Positions 19,799-31,109 of a DNA stretch of 64,000 nucleotides are shown in pieces. Source of the DNA: an uncultured Bacteroidia bacterium (GTDB lineage Bacteria; Bacteroidota; Bacteroidia; Bacteroidales; UBA932); NCBI GenBank assembly GCA_902790635.1, contig CADASN010000008.1, positions 27,028-91,027 of the forward strand, read 5' to 3'. The position numbers were made by a program, and so were the translations under genes. The stretch's first letter is position 1; each line of letters begins with the position of its first letter. The notes under the pieces are model-generated. The model did no database searches, had not been told where the DNA came from, and saw nothing but the letters and a program-made list of their open reading frames with translations.

Positions 19799-20974
19799 TC
19801 ATTTCTGCTCCGCGAGGCGGTTACGCTGCTCGCAGATCTCCGACCATTTGGGGTATTGGTCGTAGAGGGCGGCGAGGTCGGCGAGGATGTCGGGAATGGA
19901 GATGCCTTGCGGACAGACTTGCGTGCAGGCATGGCACTGCAGGCAGGCGTGGGGGCGCTTTTCCTCCGGCAACTGCTCCAACCGCATCATCGGCGTGAAG
20001 GAGAACTGCATCTTGAGGTCGTTGTACTCGGCGATCAGGCCCGGGATGTCCAGCTCCGCGGGGCAGCCCGCGCAGCAATAGCGGCACGCGGTGCAGGGAA
20101 CGGAATCCTTCATGCTTTCGGCGATCTCTCCGAGGATCCCGCGCTCGCTTTCGCCGAGCGGATCGGGCCGGTCGAAGGTGGCCACGTTGTCCGCCATCTG
20201 CTCCAGGTTGGACATGCCGCTCAGCACCACCGTCACGCCCGGGATGTCCTGCAGCCAGCGGAGAGCCCAGGAGGAGGCGCTGGCGCCGGGGCGGAGAGCC
20301 TGCAGGCGCGTCTCGGCGGCTTCGCCGGGGTGGGAGAGCTTTCCGCCGCGCAGCGGTTCCATGACGATGACAGGCAGCCCCCGTCCGTTCAGGAGCTCCA
20401 TCTTGCGACGGGCGTCCTGCAGGGTCCAGTCCAGGTAGTTGAGCTGGATCTGCACGAATTCGGCTACTTCGCCGTAGGGACCGTCCAGGATCTTCTCCAG
20501 GTTGTCCGCCGTGGCGTGGCAGGAGAAGCCAAGGTGCCTGATCCTGCCCTCTTCCCGCATCCGGACGAAGTAGTCCAGCATGCCCCAGCGGGGGTTCATA
20601 TAGTCGTCGAGGCTGTTCTCGCAGATGTTGTGGAAGAGGTAGAAATCGAAATAATCGACGCCGCATTTTTCCAGCTGGCGCGAGAAAGTGCCTGCCGGAT
20701 CGAAACGGCGCTGGTGCTGGTGCCCGGGGTATTTGTCCGCAAGCATCCATTTCTCGCGGGGATGGCGCGCGAGCGCCTCGCCCAGCACGACTTCCGACAG
20801 GCCGTCGTGATAAGGGAATGCGGTGTCGAAATAATTGATGCCGTGCGCGATGGCGTAATCCACCATCCGGAAGACGGCATCCCGGTCAATGGACTTGTCG
20901 GGAAGCAGCGGCAGGCGCATCGCCCCGAAGCCCAGGGTGGACAGTTCCCGTTCTTGGAAAGGATGGTATATCAT
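19799..20974 (-). CDS. Aldo/keto reductase with C-terminal 4Fe-4S domain
   Basis: 391 residues. The N-terminal TIM barrel has aldo/keto reductase signatures (LGFGAMRLPLL, NYFDTAFPYHDGLSE, FYLFHNI). The C-terminal 100 residues carry two cysteine clusters (CTACRYCCAGCP and CLQCHACTQVCP) that fit ferredoxin-type iron-sulfur centres. Such fused reductases are common in anaerobes; substrates are unknown. The ATG at 20974 overlaps a TGA stop that belongs to a 3'-end copy of the DUF389 gene (copy A of the 101-bp repeat). This indicates the gene once followed the DUF389 gene directly, and is now separated from it by the protease islet. Confidence 0.92.
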   Translation of the reverse strand: MIYHPFQERELSTLGFGAMRLPLLPDKSIDRDAVFRMVDYAIAHGINYFDTAFPYHDGLSEVVLGEALARHPREKWMLADKYPGHQHQRRFDPAGTFSRQLEKCGVDYFDFYLFHNICENSLDDYMNPRWGMLDYFVRMREEGRIRHLGFSCHATADNLEKILDGPYGEVAEFVQIQLNYLDWTLQDARRKMELLNGRGLPVIVMEPLRGGKLSHPGEAAETRLQALRPGASASSWALRWLQDIPGVTVVLSGMSNLEQMADNVATFDRPDPLGESERGILGEIAESMKDSVPCTACRYCCAGCPAELDIPGLIAEYNDLKMQFSFTPMMRLEQLPEEKRPHACLQCHACTQVCPQGISIPDILADLAALYDQYPKWSEICEQRNRLAEQK

Positions 20975-21063
20975 TTCTTCGGGCTGTTGACAATCACCTC
21001 TACCTGTTCCACGCCGAGCCGGGCGGTCAGCCAGTTCCGGATGCGGATGCGGTCCGCCTCCTT
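20963..21063 (-). repeat. 101-bp direct repeat, copy A (end of DUF389 gene plus start of AKR)
   Basis: This stretch matches 23848-23948 over 101 bases without gaps, with 4 mismatches at 20980, 20982, 20989 and 20990. Read on the minus strand it encodes the last part of the DUF389 protein (GVEQVEVIVNSPKK, stop) and the first four codons of the aldo/keto reductase (MIYH). It is cut off from the rest of the DUF389 gene. Confidence 0.95.
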
Positions 21064-21091
21064 CTTCGACCCTGCGGTTACGCTACCTCGC

Positions 21092-21628
21092 TTATTTCCG
21101 CAAACGGACAATCCTCACGGGCCGGTTCGGGAGTTTTGGGTATAGACAACAAAAAAATTTCGATGAGGGCATGGCATCTTGAGTATAAAGAACCCCTGGC
21201 CTTTCAAAATCCTTGCGATTGCCCTCCTGGACGTAGAGCGTTATGACAGAAATGCCGACAATAATCCGTTGATTGGTTTCACAAATTACCCGCGGATAAG
21301 GAGCATATAGGTGACCTGCCACAAGAGAATAATGTTCGAAGTCAATTCCCGGCCATTGAAGGATAGTACCGTCCTCCCAAACGAGGTCTTGCAAAAGAGA
21401 CTTATCGTTAATGACGAAGGCAAAATTGTCCCCGGAGTATCCCATTCTTTTAGCAAGTGCCCCGATTAGGTCAAAACTAACGTCCATCGGTCTTCCACTA
21501 TCATCAGAAAAGAATACGGGAACGAGCGCAGCTTCGTTATTCTCATCGAAAATGCTCTCAAATTTAGTGCAACTAGACAGAAGAAGCACGCTAACAGTAA
21601 TGGTAGTAAGTAATGCAAGCGTTTTCAT
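21092..21628 (-). CDS. Small lipoprotein of unknown function in the islet
   Basis: 178 residues. The N-terminus is a lipoprotein signal (MKTLALLTTITVSVLLLSSC, Cys20). The mature part shows no domain I recognise: it has an acidic start, several short beta segments (VPVFFSDD, RIIVGISVITLYVQE) and a basic end (RPVRIVRLRK). The ATG follows the stop of the protease gene with no gap (GAATAAATG), so the two are almost surely co-translated. Its end lies 28 bases from repeat copy A. It could be an accessory, substrate or inhibitor of the protease, but that is a guess from context. Codon use is A/T-rich like the protease gene and unlike neighbours. Confidence 0.75.
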   Translation of the reverse strand: MKTLALLTTITVSVLLLSSCTKFESIFDENNEAALVPVFFSDDSGRPMDVSFDLIGALAKRMGYSGDNFAFVINDKSLLQDLVWEDGTILQWPGIDFEHYSLVAGHLYAPYPRVICETNQRIIVGISVITLYVQEGNRKDFERPGVLYTQDAMPSSKFFCCLYPKLPNRPVRIVRLRK

Positions 21629-23806
21629 TTATTCGTCCAAAATATAAATATACAATCTGCGGCGAGAGGCATTGGGAACAGTCGAATCGGGGAGATATCG
21701 CACGTAAAAGTCACCATCTCCAAAAGAGAAGGTTTCAAAATTAGTAGGATTCGGAGTATCCATTGCTGCTGCAATTCTCAGATCTCCCGGGCAATCACTA
21801 CAGCGGGCATAAAACTCAAGATAGATGCTTGAAATAGGTGATCCAGGAGCTGCAAACAATTGGGATCCACGGTATAAAGGATAGCCAACCATATGGCCGC
21901 CACCTTCAATGGGTTCCATGCTTTCAGAAAACAAAGTCACCACAGTTCCCCCGATAGTGCCATAAAGTTCAAATGAAACTTCATCAATGTAATAAGACGA
22001 ATTATTCGTAATTGTAACATCTATCCCAGAAAGAGCATCCATGATATTTTGTTGATGATACTGTGATGCGACACTCAATGCTCCATAGGCATTGACAATG
22101 CCATATCCGACTTGATCACATCTTTTACCGGAAGGATACTGGTAGTCTGTGATATATGTGTATCCAGAAGGCCGGGTCGCACTCCTTTCCATTGCGCGCT
22201 TGACCTGACCCTTGTCAAGGTCCGGATAATTGGAGAGAATCAACGCCGCAACACCGGCTACGTGTGGAGCCGCGGAAGATGTCCCGTTAAATATCTTTGT
22301 GTATGCTTTATCTGCAAGATCTGTGGTTGTGGATGAGGTGTTGTACCCGTTGTCCCCTTGACGATCTGTTGTATATATGAAGACACCCGGAGCAACCACG
22401 TCCAGTGTTGGTCCGTAATTGCTGCTCCACGATTCTCCGTCCGGACTCGAAAGATTCTTTCGTTTTCCATCGTAAGAGATAGCACCTACAGCAATCACAT
22501 CGCCGAGATAGCCAGGATATGCGACATTATTATTATCATTGTTAGGTGTGTTTCCAGAGGAGAAGACCACAACACAACCTTTTCCATTCCGACCTAATGT
22601 GGCCGCATTGTGAATCGCTGATGTAAGCAAAGAACATTCCGCACCTCCTCCCCAAGAGCAATTTATTACATCAGCCCCATGCGTCCTCGCCCAGTTGAAG
22701 CCTTTTATGGCAGCAGGAAGGTAAATCTCTTCTCCATTGCTAATGGGATTGTAAAACCCAACTCGGATAGGCATTATCTTGCACCCGGGAGCTACGCCGC
22801 TGATACCTATTGCATTATCTTTAACGGCGCCGATAATACCTGCAACCGCTGTTCCATGGCCTGCCAGACTCTCCATAGGTGCACCACCATAAACATGGAC
22901 TGTGTCCACAGCATCGTAACCGGTAACCAAATTGGCAGACAAATCCGGATGGGTCAGTTCAACGCCATTATCTAAAACCGCCACAATGATATCACTACTA
23001 CCCTCCGTGATTGCCCACGCCGACTCAGTATTAATGTCGAATCCGGATGTCCCGGAACCATTCTGCCCTGTGTTCTTCAACCCCCATTGATTGACATAAT
23101 AGGTGTCATTGGATGCCGACGCGCCGAACCAAAAGAACCCAGGAGATGTGAACTCAAACCACCCTGTCTCATAAAAAATCGCAGAAAGTTGCATCGTTCC
23201 ATAGTCTGAATCCTTCGGCCTGCGGACAAAGTAGATCCCTTCGTCAAATCCATCGTAACAAACAACTTTGCAGCCGAATTCTTGAGCCATTTTCTTCAAC
23301 GAGGAATATGCGGAACGCCCCCGAAGTTTTACCGAGAATTCATCGGAGACCGACGACAAATGATGTTCGTCGTTCCCATACATATAGGACACATACTTTA
23401 CTCCCTGGATGACCAGTAATTCTTCGATCTGGTCTTCAGGGAATTCACCTCCTGACGCTGTTTGTAGGATAAGTAGATTATATGCGTTGTCTTCTGCCCA
23501 GTTCTCGGATAGAGTTGGATTCCATACCTTCCAGCAGGATACATTGTTAAGCTCTTGGATAAACTCCCGGCGTTCCTGTGTACCTGTAAAACACACAAGA
23601 AGGAGGTCTCTGCGTTCTTTCAGAAAGATTTGTTCATCGAAGTAGTAGTAATAGGGGCCAGGGTCATCCACCCCTTTCGTTTTCAGATGATCTTCTTGTG
23701 CAACACTGGGTTGTTGCTGTTGATCTTCTGTCAGATCCAATACAGAGCATCCTAAAGCCAACAATAGGATCGGGAGAACAAAATGAAGTGCGCTGTGTTT
23801 TTGCAT
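21629..23806 (-). CDS. Subtilisin-like serine protease (S8), probable lipoprotein
   Basis: 725 residues. A signal peptide ends at Cys20 (LLLALGC), a probable lipidation site, followed by a Q-rich linker. Residues about 50-225 look like a propeptide region. The catalytic domain has Asp279 (VAVLDNGVEL), His317 (AGHGTAVAGIIGA), the oxyanion Asn419 (FSSGN) and Ser510 (NGTSSAAPHVAG), so the triad is intact. Residues about 590-725 form a beta-rich C-terminal domain. It is probably on the cell surface or in the periplasm. The gene lies in the low-G+C islet, 41 bases from repeat copy B, with no convincing promoter box; it may be read through from the DUF389 gene. Confidence 0.93.
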   Translation of the reverse strand: MQKHSALHFVLPILLLALGCSVLDLTEDQQQQPSVAQEDHLKTKGVDDPGPYYYYFDEQIFLKERRDLLLVCFTGTQERREFIQELNNVSCWKVWNPTLSENWAEDNAYNLLILQTASGGEFPEDQIEELLVIQGVKYVSYMYGNDEHHLSSVSDEFSVKLRGRSAYSSLKKMAQEFGCKVVCYDGFDEGIYFVRRPKDSDYGTMQLSAIFYETGWFEFTSPGFFWFGASASNDTYYVNQWGLKNTGQNGSGTSGFDINTESAWAITEGSSDIIVAVLDNGVELTHPDLSANLVTGYDAVDTVHVYGGAPMESLAGHGTAVAGIIGAVKDNAIGISGVAPGCKIMPIRVGFYNPISNGEEIYLPAAIKGFNWARTHGADVINCSWGGGAECSLLTSAIHNAATLGRNGKGCVVVFSSGNTPNNDNNNVAYPGYLGDVIAVGAISYDGKRKNLSSPDGESWSSNYGPTLDVVAPGVFIYTTDRQGDNGYNTSSTTTDLADKAYTKIFNGTSSAAPHVAGVAALILSNYPDLDKGQVKRAMERSATRPSGYTYITDYQYPSGKRCDQVGYGIVNAYGALSVASQYHQQNIMDALSGIDVTITNNSSYYIDEVSFELYGTIGGTVVTLFSESMEPIEGGGHMVGYPLYRGSQLFAAPGSPISSIYLEFYARCSDCPGDLRIAAAMDTPNPTNFETFSFGDGDFYVRYLPDSTVPNASRRRLYIYILDE

Positions 23807-23847
23807 ATTCTTTTCTCTATACTATAACGGTTAACGCTAAAAAAAGT

Positions 23848-23948
23848 ATGGTATATCATTTCTTTGAGCTGTTAGCAATCACCTCTACCTGTTCCACGCC
23901 GAGCCGGGCGGTCAGCCAGTTCCGGATGCGGATGCGGTCCGCCTCCTT
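23848..23948 (-). repeat. 101-bp direct repeat, copy B (functional 3' end of DUF389 gene)
   Basis: 97 of 101 bases match copy A at 20963-21063. Copy B is continuous with the DUF389 gene and supplies its last codons (GVEQVEVIANSSKK, stop). It also keeps ATGATATACCAT, the first codons of the aldo/keto reductase, although that gene is no longer here. The last 73 bases are identical between copies; all four differences lie within 11 bases. Confidence 0.95.
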
Positions 23949-25205
23949 GACCGGCAGGGCGCTCTGGATGATGGCCACGATCGTCTCCCGACTCTCGCCG
24001 CTGACGGCATCGACGCGTTCGCCGCGGGTCAGGGTGACGCTCTGGATGCCCTCATACTGGGCGGCCATCTCCCGGGCGATCAACGCCGAAGGGAGCTGCG
24101 AGTTCTTGTATTGCTGCAGCTCTCCGGAGAGTTCCGTGATCTTGGCTTCGAGTTCTTCGACCTGGCGGTTGTGGCTGTCGATGATCCCGCGGATGAGTTC
24201 GGACTCGGTCATCATCTCATACTGGAAGGCGGCGTCTTCGTGGATGGAGATCTGGCTGCGGACGATGCCGGCAGCTTCGGCCTGCTGGTAGAGCCGTTCG
24301 CGGGCGAGGTCTTCCATCTTCTCGCCGGCCATGAAGATCTCGATGGTGGGAGGGTCCGCCTCAAGATCGATCTTGTAGTCATAGATATAGCTCTTGCCGA
24401 GGTTCTTGTTCTGCTCCACGATGCGCTGGACGCTGCGTTCGAAGTTGTTGTCCCGGATCATCTCGATGCCGGACAGCACGCTCGGGACGAGCAGGGCGAG
24501 GATGATGACGGCACTCCAGCGGGCGGAACGCCGGCGGAGGGTGGCGTCGGCTTCAAAAGCCAGGGGGAAGTGGAGATATTTGACCGTGACGACGGTGGCC
24601 AGGGCGATGAAAACGCTGTTGATGAGGAAAAGGTAGAACGCGCCCAGGATGAAGCGCAGCTCCAGGTGGGCGATGCCGTAGCCGACGGTACAGAGCGGCG
24701 GCATCAGGGCGGTGGCGATGGCCACGCCCGGAATCACCGTGCCGCCCCGCTCCTTGCGGGAATTCTCCAGGATGCCGGCAAAACCGCCGAACAGGGCGAT
24801 CAGCACATCGTAGAGGGTGGGGTTGGTACGGGCCAGCAGTTCCGTCTGCTTCTCCAGGTGCAGCGGCGAGATCAGGTAAAAGAGCGAAGACGCGACGATG
24901 CTGATCAGGACCATCACGATGAAGTTCTTGAGCGACTCCTTGACCAGGGTCGTGTCATTGGTGCCCAGGCCGAGGCCGAACCCGAGGATCGGGCCCATCA
25001 CCGGGGAAATGAGCATCGCACCGATAATGACCGGGATGGAGTTGAGGTTGAGCCCCACCGAAGCGATGACGATGGCGCAGGCCAGGATGAAGACATTGGG
25101 ACCGCGGAATGCGATGCCACTCTGGATGCGGACGGCAGCAGCTTTCACATCCACATGGTCTTTCATGTTGACCAGCGACTTGAAGAAATAAGAGACCTTG
25201 TTCAT
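23856..25205 (-). CDS. DUF389 family membrane protein
   Basis: 449 residues from ATG 25205 (MNKVSYFFKSL). A much longer reading frame upstream has no coding character and overlaps a well-supported gene. The first 270 residues hold about six membrane helices and the DUF389 signature (FRGPNVFILACAIVIASVGL, IPVIIGAMLISPVMGPILG, GGTVIPGVAIATALMPPLCT). The rest is a soluble domain with a likely coiled coil (about 345-375, RQVEELEAKITELSGELQQY). Function of DUF389 proteins is unknown; they resemble transport proteins. The last 31 codons lie in repeat copy B. It has a full-match promoter box and originally formed an operon with the aldo/keto reductase gene. Confidence 0.9.
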   Translation of the reverse strand: MNKVSYFFKSLVNMKDHVDVKAAAVRIQSGIAFRGPNVFILACAIVIASVGLNLNSIPVIIGAMLISPVMGPILGFGLGLGTNDTTLVKESLKNFIVMVLISIVASSLFYLISPLHLEKQTELLARTNPTLYDVLIALFGGFAGILENSRKERGGTVIPGVAIATALMPPLCTVGYGIAHLELRFILGAFYLFLINSVFIALATVVTVKYLHFPLAFEADATLRRRSARWSAVIILALLVPSVLSGIEMIRDNNFERSVQRIVEQNKNLGKSYIYDYKIDLEADPPTIEIFMAGEKMEDLARERLYQQAEAAGIVRSQISIHEDAAFQYEMMTESELIRGIIDSHNRQVEELEAKITELSGELQQYKNSQLPSALIAREMAAQYEGIQSVTLTRGERVDAVSGESRETIVAIIQSALPVKEADRIRIRNWLTARLGVEQVEVIANSSKK

Positions 25206-25230
25206 TCCGTTCAAACCACTTCTCGAACCA

Positions 25231-27377: not shown

Positions 27378-29702
27378 ATGAAAACACGGGGACCTTTTTT
27401 TACCACCTTGAAAATGCTAAATGGTCTGGTGATCAGCATCTTATGTATCACACTGACCAACTGTACGCCTCGCGCGGAGAAAGAATTGATGGCTGCTTTC
27501 GAGAACCCGCCGCAGACGGCCAAACCCGTGATTATCTGGCAATGGATGGACGGCTGGGTGACGAAGGAGGGGATCACTCATGACCTGGAGGCATTTGCCG
27601 CTGCCGGTCTCGGCGGAGTGCAGAATTTCCAGGTGGGCGGCCCTGCGCAGACGGATTTCGTGCGCGAGGGTTGCACCATCGGTTCGCCCGAGTGGCAGGA
27701 GCTGATGCGCTTCGCCATGCAGGAATGCGCTCGGCTGGGCCTGACTTTCGGCACGCACAACTGCCCTGGCTGGTCGTCGAGCGCCTACCCGGACGTGACG
27801 CCTGAATATTCGATGCTGGAGCTGGTCTGGACGCAGACGCGCCTGCCGGCTGGGAAGCGCAGCGTCCGTCTCCCGCAGCCGCAGGAGCGCCTGGGCTTCT
27901 ACCGCGACATCTGCGTGCTGGCCTTGCCTGCCGGGCAGGAAATCTCCGAGGGCATGGTGGACCTGAGCACGGCCATGAAGCCGGACGGTACCCTGTCCTG
28001 GGACGGGGGCGGATCGGCGTGGGATATCTATCGCTTCGGTTACACGACGCTGAACAAGCGGGACGACAGCACCTCGCCCCGCTCCGGTGCGGGCCTGGAG
28101 TGCGACAAGATGAGCCGGGAGGCCGTGAAGCGCTTCTGGGACGGCTACCCGACGATGATCCTGAATCTGGCCGGCGACCTGGCCGGGAAGACCCTGGTCA
28201 ATTTCGAAATCGACAGCTATGAGCAGAAGAGCCAGAGTTGGACGCCGCTGATGGAGCAGGAGTTCGAAGCCCGGCGCGGCTATCGCCTGCGTCAGTGGCT
28301 GCCCGTGCTGGCCGGACGGACGTTGGAGAGCGCGGAGCGCAGCGCACAGTTCCTGACGGACTGGAAGGCCACCATCGAGGACCTGTTCGCGGAGAACTAC
28401 TACGCCTATATGTCCGAGCTCGTGAAGCAGACCCCTGGCATGCGCCTGCTGATCCAGCCCTACGGCGAACCGCTCGATCCGGAGAAAGTGGTCACGCAGG
28501 ATGAGGACTTCATCATCTGCGGCGAGTTCTGGACCAACCCTTCCGACTGGGGCGGGCGCAGCATTTACCAGATGTCCGACCTGGCGCACAAGCTGGGCCG
28601 CCGCGAGGTCTACGCCGAAGGCTTCACCTGCTGGCCGCTCAATGCCTGGGAGGACGATCCGAACAGCCTGAAGGTCATCGCGGACCGGGTGTTCTGCGTC
28701 GGCATCAACCGCCTGATGCTCCACGCCGGGGCCGCCAATCCCTGGCCGTGGGCCGAACCCGGGATGACCTTCGGCAAATGGGGCACGCAGTTCACGCCCG
28801 GCAACACCTGGTGGAAGGCCGGCGGCGCGCGGGAGCTCTACCGCTATTTCGCGCAGTGCCAGGCCCTGCTGCAGCGCGGCGACTTCGTGGACAACTGCAT
28901 CGAAGGAGACCTGTGGTGGATGCACCGCCGCGAGGGCGACATCGACATCTGGTTCCTCTCCAACCAGACGGATGCCCCGATGGCCGTGCAGCAGGCATTT
29001 GCCCAGGGACTGCAGCTGGACGCACACGGATCCGAGTTTGTCGTCACGAAGGCCGGCAAGCGCCTGCCCGTCACGCTGCATCCCGGCGGTGTCCGCTCCG
29101 CGTTCGCATCCTCCGGCAGCACGCCGCTTGACGGCGCCTGGACGGTGGATTTCCCCGAAGGGGCCGGGGCACCAGCTCAAATCGTGCTCGACACGCTGAC
29201 TGACTGGAAGGAACATACCGAGCCCGGCGTGCGGTATTTCTCCGGCACGGCGACCTACCACAAGAGCTTCCAGTACCACAAGGAGGGCGGCCGCGTCTGG
29301 CTGGACCTCGGCGAGGTGCAGAACATGGCGCAGGTGACGCTCAACGGCCGCGAGCTCGGCATCCTCTGGCATGCTCCCTTCTCCGTGGACGTGACGGATG
29401 CGCTGCATGACGGCGACAACGAACTGGAAATCCGTGTCACGAACCTCTGGGTCAACCGGATGATCGGTGACGAATTCGAGCCGGACGACGTGGTCTGGGG
29501 AGAGCCTGCGCGCTATGGCTATGCCCCGGGCAGTCCGCTCATCGGGAGCACGATGAAGGAGGTCCCGGAGTGGCTGGAGAAGAACCAGCCCCGCCCCTCG
29601 CAGGGCCGGCACGCCGTCATCAGCTACAAGTTCTTCAGCCAGTACGCCCCGCTGCACCCCTCCGGCCTGCTCGGCCCGGTGGTGCTGACTCACGGCAGGT
29701 AA
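27378..29702 (+). CDS. GH106-like glycoside hydrolase lipoprotein
   Basis: 774 residues from ATG 27378; lipoprotein signal with Cys29 (ITLTNC). The start of the mature protein is typical of the alpha-L-rhamnosidase-related GH106 group: FENPPQTAKPVIIWQWMDG, then VTKEGITHDLEAFAAAGLGG. A C-terminal beta-sandwich (about 630-740) has the jelly-roll pattern of a galactose-binding-like domain (WLDLGEVQNMAQVTLNGREL). It is shorter than characterised GH106 enzymes (about 1000 residues or more), so the specificity is uncertain. It leads an operon with a sugar porter, a DUF5107-TPR protein and a GH35-like enzyme, preceded by the 19-bp operator. Rhamnogalacturonan side chains are a plausible target by inference. 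Confidence 0.78.
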   Translation: MKTRGPFFTTLKMLNGLVISILCITLTNCTPRAEKELMAAFENPPQTAKPVIIWQWMDGWVTKEGITHDLEAFAAAGLGGVQNFQVGGPAQTDFVREGCTIGSPEWQELMRFAMQECARLGLTFGTHNCPGWSSSAYPDVTPEYSMLELVWTQTRLPAGKRSVRLPQPQERLGFYRDICVLALPAGQEISEGMVDLSTAMKPDGTLSWDGGGSAWDIYRFGYTTLNKRDDSTSPRSGAGLECDKMSREAVKRFWDGYPTMILNLAGDLAGKTLVNFEIDSYEQKSQSWTPLMEQEFEARRGYRLRQWLPVLAGRTLESAERSAQFLTDWKATIEDLFAENYYAYMSELVKQTPGMRLLIQPYGEPLDPEKVVTQDEDFIICGEFWTNPSDWGGRSIYQMSDLAHKLGRREVYAEGFTCWPLNAWEDDPNSLKVIADRVFCVGINRLMLHAGAANPWPWAEPGMTFGKWGTQFTPGNTWWKAGGARELYRYFAQCQALLQRGDFVDNCIEGDLWWMHRREGDIDIWFLSNQTDAPMAVQQAFAQGLQLDAHGSEFVVTKAGKRLPVTLHPGGVRSAFASSGSTPLDGAWTVDFPEGAGAPAQIVLDTLTDWKEHTEPGVRYFSGTATYHKSFQYHKEGGRVWLDLGEVQNMAQVTLNGRELGILWHAPFSVDVTDALHDGDNELEIRVTNLWVNRMIGDEFEPDDVVWGEPARYGYAPGSPLIGSTMKEVPEWLEKNQPRPSQGRHAVISYKFFSQYAPLHPSGLLGPVVLTHGR

Positions 29703-29735
29703 AAGAAAAAGTAACATTGCACAAAACCACGGATT

Positions 29736-31109
29736 ATGACCGGATCATACAACAAGGGATTCATTTATTTCATCTGCCTCGTGTCGGCGATGGGCGGCCT
29801 GCTGTTCGGCTACGACTGGGTCGTGATCGGCGGGGCGGTCAAGTTTTACGAACAATTCTTCGGCCTGGGCGGGAACCCGGTCCTGCAGGGCATCGCCACG
29901 AGCGCAGCCCTGGTAGGCTGCATGGTGGGCGCGCTGACGGCGGGTGCGCTGGCGGACCGCTATGGCCGCAAGCCGCTCCTGATGGTCGCGGCCGTGCTTT
30001 TCACGGTCAGTGCCATCGCCACGGGCCTGTTCAATGACTTCTGGCTCTTCTGCATCGCGCGCCTCGTGGGCGGTGTGGGGATCGGCCTCGCGTCGGCCAT
30101 CTCGCCGATGTACATTGCCGAAGTGTCGCCTTCGGACGTGCGCGGACGGCTGGTGAGCCTCAACCAGATGACCATCGTGCTGGGCATCCTGGCGGCGCAG
30201 GTTGCGAACTGGGCGATCGCCCGGCCGGATGTCGGCGGACAGATCGATCCGTGGAATATCGAGATGGGCTGGCGCTGGATGTTCTGGGCGGAGACCGTCC
30301 CTGCGGCCGCTTTCCTTGTCCTGTCCTTCTTCATCCCGGAGAGTCCGCGCTGGACGGCGCTCAATGACCGCGTCGCGCAGGCGCGTTCCGTCCTTTCCCG
30401 CGTAGGCGGGGAGGCTTACGCCGAAGGCGAACTGGCGGCCATCGCCGCTTCCGTGGCAGACGCCCCGGAGAGCAAGGCCGGCCTGAAGGAGCTTTTCCGC
30501 AAACGCTACGCGCGGGTCCTGGCGCTCGGCATCATCATCGCCGTCTTCCAGCAGTGGTGCGGCACCAACGTGATCTTCATCTACGCGCAGGAGGTCTTCG
30601 CCGGAGCGGGCTACACGGTCAGCGAGGCCTTCCTCAATATCATCGTGACGGGCATTGCGAACGTCATCTTCACGATCCTGGCCCTGCAGGTCGTGGACCG
30701 CTGGGGCCGGCGCAAGCTGATGCTGCTGGGTTCGGGCGGACTCGCCCTGATCTATCTGGTCATGGGCCTGTGCTTCCGCGCGGGTGTGACGGGCATCGTG
30801 ATGGTGCTGCTGACGGTGGCGGCCATCGCTTGCTATGCGATGACGCTGGCCCCCGTGACCTGGGTGCTCCTGTCGGAGATCTTCCCCAACCGCGTGCGCG
30901 GTATCGCGATGGCGGTCTGCACCTTTGCCCTGTGGGTGGGCAGCTGCACGCTGACCTTCGCCTTCCCGTCGATGAACGCGGCACTGGGCTGCAGCGGCAG
31001 TTTCCTGATCTATGCCGCCATCTGCCTGTGCGGCTTCCTGTATTTCCTCAAGGCCTGTCCGGAGACCAAGGGCAAGAGCCTTGAACAACTTGAAAATGAA
31101 TTGCAGTAA
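29736..31109 (+). CDS. Sugar porter family MFS transporter
   Basis: 457 residues with about 12 membrane helices. Sugar-porter signatures are present: GGLLFGYDWVVIGGA in helix 1, DRYGRKPLLM, PESPRW in the central loop, QQWCGTNVI in helix 7, DRWGRRKLML and the terminal PETKGKSLEQLE. Such proteins import monosaccharides (xylose, arabinose, glucose, galactose) with protons across the inner membrane. It is the second gene of the operon, 33 bases after the GH106-like gene and 1 base before the DUF5107 gene. The central position suggests it imports the monosaccharide released by the operon enzymes; which one cannot be told. Confidence 0.92.
   Translation: MTGSYNKGFIYFICLVSAMGGLLFGYDWVVIGGAVKFYEQFFGLGGNPVLQGIATSAALVGCMVGALTAGALADRYGRKPLLMVAAVLFTVSAIATGLFNDFWLFCIARLVGGVGIGLASAISPMYIAEVSPSDVRGRLVSLNQMTIVLGILAAQVANWAIARPDVGGQIDPWNIEMGWRWMFWAETVPAAAFLVLSFFIPESPRWTALNDRVAQARSVLSRVGGEAYAEGELAAIAASVADAPESKAGLKELFRKRYARVLALGIIIAVFQQWCGTNVIFIYAQEVFAGAGYTVSEAFLNIIVTGIANVIFTILALQVVDRWGRRKLMLLGSGGLALIYLVMGLCFRAGVTGIVMVLLTVAAIACYAMTLAPVTWVLLSEIFPNRVRGIAMAVCTFALWVGSCTLTFAFPSMNAALGCSGSFLIYAAICLCGFLYFLKACPETKGKSLEQLENELQ

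Follow-up and report, generated by a model that had tools for sequence, protein, structure and literature searches.

How two genes that adjoin or overlap in related genomes can come to lie 2.8 kb apart, both of them whole, is the question raised by a locus of an uncultured member of the Bacteroidales (GenBank assembly GCA_902790635.1, contig CADASN010000008.1). In the 64,000-nucleotide stretch analyzed, hereafter the window, a gene for a DUF389 membrane protein and one for an aldo/keto reductase (AKR) are separated by an islet of low G+C content, which hosts just two genes, coding for an S8 (subtilase) protease and a lipoprotein-like protein, and is flanked by 101-bp direct repeats made of host gene ends. 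The comparison of related genomes supports the view that DUF389 and AKR abutted or overlapped ancestrally, and that the islet is a later insertion which left both neighbours intact. As read from the sequences, the build of the islet is that of the published insertion with long target duplication.

The islet, its repeats and the empty site

The two repeat copies, A on the AKR side and B at the end of DUF389, are identical at 97 of 101 bases (Table 1). The same repeat was recovered by an independent repeat search (106 nt, 95%, spacing 2885), and in a self-BLAST of the window scored E ~5e-42, the other two pairs passing the same filter being 38 bp long. The 2,784 bp between the copies have a foreign composition, with a G+C content of 0.457 (0.42-0.49 in 500-base windows) vs. 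0.622 and 0.615 in the 5 kb on either side. Alignment, repeat search, self-BLAST and G+C content thus confirm the direct repeats around a low-G+C two-gene islet, noticed in an earlier reading of the same DNA (the original prediction).

Read along the minus strand, the locus runs from the DUF389 gene through copy B, the S8 protease, the lipoprotein-like gene and copy A to the AKR gene; 41 nt lie between copy B and the start of the protease, and 28 nt between the stop of the lipoprotein-like gene and copy A. Copy A comprises the final 101 nt of a DUF389 gene end; these take in the initial 12 nt of AKR, and the ATG of AKR overlaps the TGA. Copy B is the 3' end of the intact DUF389 gene, islet DNA beginning after four AKR codons. 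All four mismatches between the copies fall inside 11 bases, toward the islet end of copy B; four random mismatches were that clustered in 0.27% of simulations (P 0.0027).

As claimed at the outset, neither of the two islet genes is a recombinase, a result that does not extend to the transposase families of insertion sequences, which were not scanned over the window. Matches to the Phage_integrase family number three in the whole bin, none on the contig of the window; two of the three have a size that we take to be XerC/D-like. The islet is not built as a composite transposon, the flanking repeats being ends of host genes, not insertion sequences.

Four hundred genomes of the genus, one per species, were searched with the whole locus, and 22 of them, the window's own included, matched at E<=1e-130. 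DUF389 lies directly before AKR, with nothing in between, in eight relatives (G008, G015, G065, G176, G204, G224, G250 and G258), all of which were aligned. The junction shows the 4-nt ATGA overlap of copy A in six of the eight, a 1-nt overlap in G204, and a 2-nt gap in G015. Just one of the two genes was matched at the same threshold in each of the other 13 genomes; DUF389 is present in G058 without AKR beside it. The search for an empty site had been suggested together with the original prediction, and its outcome sustains the idea of a formerly abutting or overlapping gene pair, as well as that of an insertion sparing both partners. The sole informative position codes for Val in copy A, as in six relatives (Ile in the two others), and for Ala in copy B. 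At that one position copy A shows the ancestral state, copy B a derived tail.

Table 1. Features of the DUF389-AKR locus (window positions)
Feature	Position	Strand	Evidence
DUF389 membrane protein gene, intact, last codons in copy B	23856..25208	-	Pfam PF04087 E 3.3e-44; 71-82% aa identity to 8 relatives
Repeat copy B: DUF389 3' end and first 12 nt of AKR, then islet DNA	23848..23948	-	97/101 to copy A; encodes VIANSSKK
Islet between the copies, 2,784 bp of low G+C with two genes, neither a recombinase	21064..23847	-	
S8 (subtilase) lipoprotein-type protease, 725 aa	21629..23806	-	Pfam PF00082 Peptidase_S8 E 2.6e-52
Small lipoprotein-like gene, 178 aa	21092..21628	-	Adjoins protease at 6/6 full-length loci; alignment of 7 sequences
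G+C-rich terminal stretch of islet, faintly AKR-3'-tail-like (unproven)	21064..21104	-	
Repeat copy A: displaced DUF389 3' end running into AKR, original junction kept	20963..21063	-	Encodes VIVNSPKK
AKR with 4Fe-4S domain, intact	19799..20974	-	Pfam PF00248 Aldo_ket_red E 2.7e-37; 74-84% aa identity to 8 relatives

Islets of similar build at other genes

Repeats were monitored in 1.38 Mb of DNA (21 pieces), fetched in part for S8 genes or for homologs of the flanking genes; no rate of such islets is derivable from a sample chosen in this way. At a spacing of 0.5-5 kb, seven pairs reached a length of 40 bp and an identity of 93% or more. In five of them the G+C content of the interior is lower by 8 points or more, and three of these five host an S8 gene of the window-protease family, or remains of it. 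Two pairs fall beyond the limits of the scan, one behind an hpf-type gene (see below), the other, in G016, made up by 181-bp copies (92.8%) 10.9 kb apart, without low G+C content. To judge from these sequences, the build of the islet recurs at other loci, but not at every protease locus.

The closest counterpart resides in G204 (contig C20), where aroK is followed by a helix-turn-helix gene, the S8 protease, the lipoprotein gene, a decayed second aroK and ssb. The helix-turn-helix gene is HigA-like but below the HigA cut-off. The aroK remnant retains 51 identical bases from the gene start and 122 bases at 86% identity near the end, the middle being lost. Matches to aroK and ssb adjoin in six relatives (G008, G058, G065, G080, G097 and G108), and overlap in G058 by exactly 51 bases. 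Empty sites are therefore at hand for two events, DUF389/AKR and aroK/ssb, and in part for a third (pta, see below). In G036 aroE and ssb were matched, with no aroK in between at the threshold used. An 83% DNA match to the HigA-like gene of the G204 islet was noticed in G080 (C2, 8424-8677) between aroE and aroK, on the opposite side of aroK. The aroE-aroK-ssb region seems to be variable.

In G008 (contig C11) a 2.5-kb block, which carries a decayed S8 gene of the window-protease family (E 2.6e-36, residues 10-248), is bounded on both sides by the last codons of a TonB-receptor gene, in copies identical at 55/55 bases. This block and its neighbours are in turn enclosed by two copies (33/34 bases), 10.3 kb apart, of the terminator that follows a ribosomal S30AE (hpf-type) gene. 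In G036 (contig C12) a YoeB-type toxin gene (L038 8463-9272) lies between two 46/46 copies of the terminator of an Hsp70 (dnaK) gene. The cores of the hpf and dnaK terminators occur in two copies only in their genomes, with 2 and 3 mismatches allowed, respectively.

On the same contig of G036, at 75096-78021, pta and a diverged remnant of it enclose two genes that match no Pfam family; the larger of the two may be Rhs-core-like, as judged by eye. Compared over 164 positions, the pta copies show 19 differences (12%), 14 of which fall on third codon positions (P 4e-4 vs. one third), and eight relatives side variably with either copy. The copies look like two once-functional alleles of different lineages, so the pta event would have carried the neighbour gene along. 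The empty pta site is incomplete, a MatE gene adjoining pta in G018 with the cytidylate-kinase-like gene missing.

Two repeats of the window's own genome (G000) are of a different sort. HipA-N and HipA-C genes (C13, 123717-125367) have upstream a 62-base copy (95%) of the 3' end of the module itself, and this pair may be a local duplication. A 117-base repeat (97%; C4, 97356-98100), judged by eye to be an element dispersed in the genus, was left out of the islet count.

Origin of the islet and its relation to known systems

The build of the islet may have arisen by a one-time homologous exchange anchored in DUF389 and completed by an illegitimate join, an event for which the cassette would need no enzyme of its own; this explanation is tentatively favoured, at slightly less than even confidence. 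In this view the donor DNA would have come from a related lineage, with the cassette attached to the 3' end of a DUF389 gene. It would have been anchored by homologous exchange within the resident DUF389 gene, whose present tail (copy B) would be that of the donor. At its far side the donor DNA would have been joined illegitimately at a point 101 bp upstream of where the resident stretch ends, and the resident tail with its junction (copy A) would have been left in front of AKR, keeping both neighbours whole. For the window we infer the donor, the side of the anchor and the illegitimate join.

The exchange is favoured because the pta copies are allele-like and the mismatches in the window, although few, are clustered; the empty site in relatives and the islets of like build at other genes also speak for it. 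The mismatch cluster and the derived copy B of the window may point to a donor allele at one junction, in keeping with the proposal that one repeat copy came from a related strain, but no donor was found. Clear allele-like divergence is seen at pta alone, and aroK points in the opposite direction.

Several observations weigh against an anchored exchange. Besides the window's genome, four of the 400 genomes have the protease at E<=1e-70, and in none does it share a contig with a DUF389 or AKR match, so that a cassette beside DUF389 was not met in any candidate donor. The differences in the aroK remnant are spread evenly over codon positions (4/4/6) and accompanied by indels; this case is better explained by plain duplication and decay than by a foreign allele, and the class of events may be mixed for this reason. 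Full-length protease loci number six (the window, G000:C11, G036:C12, G204:C40, G204:C20 and G333:C14), and a neighbour gene is duplicated beyond the protease-lipoprotein pair in two only, the window and G204:C20. The expectation that the pair would be found elsewhere next to duplicated target ends holds for G204:C20 and, as remains, for G008:C11, but fails for the four other full-length loci; on this account our confidence, formerly even, was slightly lowered. A ComEC-family match in G000 (C3, 60473-61198) says little, as it contains one in-frame TAG and the family is matched in 10 of 14 control genomes as well.

A true target duplication, in which a staggered break of ~100 bp is filled in at both ends while a foreign fragment is captured, is the less probable of the two leading explanations. 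The copies would be identical at first and mutate later, as the exact 46-, 51- and 55-bp copies at three other islets and the pseudogene-like decay of the aroK remnant would suggest; repeat lengths ranging from 34 to >100 bp and the published pattern agree with it too. The pta copies, however, are 12% different, chiefly at third positions, and the mismatches in the window are clustered.

It is doubtful that the end of DUF389 and the whole AKR were first duplicated in tandem, the spare AKR being then overwritten by the cassette except for its initial 12 nt and a short stretch of 3' tail. Copy B does retain the first four codons of AKR, and the last ~40 nt of the islet (21064..21104), a stretch unique in the genome, resemble the AKR tail better than 978 other pieces of the window (982, minus two with the stretch itself and two with the AKR tail). 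The last part of a profile of nine AKR tails aligns to that same spot. Yet the likeness, first spotted by eye, is short and scores 27, the runner-up 25; the profile aligns there only at E 7.9, as hit 48 of 707.

Elements of the integrase type typically insert at gene 3' ends and restore the end of the target, some, as phage 21 or e14 in icd, carrying a replacement for the gene end. The islet could in principle be a small element of this sort, moved in trans by a tyrosine recombinase, with repeats corresponding to attL and attR and a gene-end replacement carried along, and insertion at a gene 3' end with the end restored is what such elements typically do. This is quite unlikely, since the target differs each time (DUF389, aroK, the TonB-receptor gene, the dnaK and hpf terminators, pta) and integrase-family matches, three in the genome, are missing from the contig. 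The islet shares with integrase islands the restored target end, but has neither an integrase nor a fixed target, and does not qualify as one. An assembly artefact of the metagenome bin is highly improbable: the window's genome and those compared are fragmented assemblies, but the copies differ at four bases and sit well inside a 91-kb contig, and the same build is found in three other assemblies.

For restriction-modification genes, insertion with long target duplication was reportedly described by Nobusato in 2000 and Furuta in 2010. The minimal mobile elements of Neisseria are a different case, in which cargo is swapped by homologous recombination between two conserved genes, and a gene end is not known to be duplicated. 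The islet resembles the latter in having cargo between two conserved genes, which may have entered via homologous recombination, but differs because a gene end is duplicated here.

Passages of four papers describe insertion with long and variable target duplication for restriction-modification genes (PMC1643837, PMC3031569, PMC3154945, PMC3874152), and one of the four gives the duplication as in the order of 100 bp. The likeness is close: a foreign gene block without mobile element of its own, an empty site in relatives, and a duplication of ~100 bp but variable, measuring 101 bp in the window and 34, 46, 55 bp and more elsewhere. The differences reside in the cargo and in the host. Restriction-modification genes, the usual though not strictly defining cargo, are replaced here by an S8 protease and an unclassified lipoprotein-like protein, and by toxin-antitoxin (TA)-like genes in other islets; the host is a genus of Bacteroidales, and the pta copies are diverged alleles.

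For Vibrio cholerae, homology-facilitated illegitimate recombination has been discussed in relation to effector-immunity displacement (PMC5361080, PMC3240628), and the relevant part of the former paper proposes that effectors are displaced in this way and old 3' ends shifted back (PMC5361080). On the explanation favoured here, both systems would have a conserved upstream anchor, new cargo added, and an old gene end pushed downstream; in the islet, however, the anchor is a neighbour gene, not an effector cluster, and the illegitimate junction is presumed. The islet had been advertised as possibly of a new kind, a claim which is not supported, because insertion with long target duplication is already published for restriction-modification genes, as is the proposal of homology-facilitated illegitimate recombination for effector-immunity modules; nor do four of the six full-length protease loci show such a duplication. 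A narrow literature search that combined direct repeats with Bacteroidales, gene insertion and target duplication retrieved no paper, which is no proof of absence in print.

The protease-lipoprotein pair and its meaning

Residues D279, H317 and S510 of the protease, which we take to be the catalytic triad, are conserved across three aligned members. The 178-aa protein owes the label of lipoprotein to a by-eye reading of its signal peptide, and belongs to no Pfam or NCBIfam family. Its AlphaFold2 model (mean pLDDT 77.7, pTM 0.73) had no Foldseek match in the PDB at E<=0.001, so no function is derivable. Truncation of this protein, suspected at first from two paralogs, was dropped; a similarly short C-terminus is found in G204.

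The protease was detected at E<=1e-70 in five of the 400 genomes, including the window's own (5/61 at E<=1e-30), and its alignment, scanned over the named genomes, gave two loci, one in G036. At all six full-length loci the lipoprotein-like gene comes next on the same strand. No protease match outside the window shares a contig with the DUF389 or AKR match of its genome. On these sequence comparisons the cargo pair appears to be rare and to change location among genomes. A plasmid vehicle was rejected, since the 475 plasmid records matching the protease are all <60% identical and none covers >80% of its length; a phage vehicle was rejected too, the lipoprotein having no match in phage records.

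Repeat searches at the protease loci G000:C11, G060 and G026 gave nothing of note, and a 28-bp match (86%) was found at G204:C40. The G000:C11 locus (28405-30543) is a second S8-lipoprotein pair of the window's genome, with a protease 56% identical and without long repeats, near a TPR/DUF6377-like protein (weak Pfam matches). In G333 a 110-bp repeat (92.7%) lies within the cassette rather than in a neighbour gene. One S8 protease lies at this locus (L147 8940-12329, from contig C14) between two lipoprotein-like genes that share 57% identity, and the 110 bases 5' of the protease recur 5' of the protease-less lipoprotein gene, a pattern suggestive of the loss of a protease whose partner was kept.

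One speculative and rather improbable reading is that protease and lipoprotein are an attack-and-protection pair spreading as a recombinase-free cassette, for which the end of any neighbour gene might serve as a landing strip, the repeats permitting also precise loss or amplification. If so, the protease-less tandem lipoprotein of G333 and the TA-like genes of other islets would reflect selection for addictive or immunity-bearing cargo.

The two islets whose empty sites are seen in relatives, together with several candidates, are places where the mechanism could be settled. Overlapping genes can, as it appears from the window, accommodate a foreign insert of 2.8 kb and lose nothing. With such islets, the range of insertion with long target duplication would widen from restriction enzymes to proteases of surface type and to TA-like genes, the host being an uncultured genus of the Bacteroidales.

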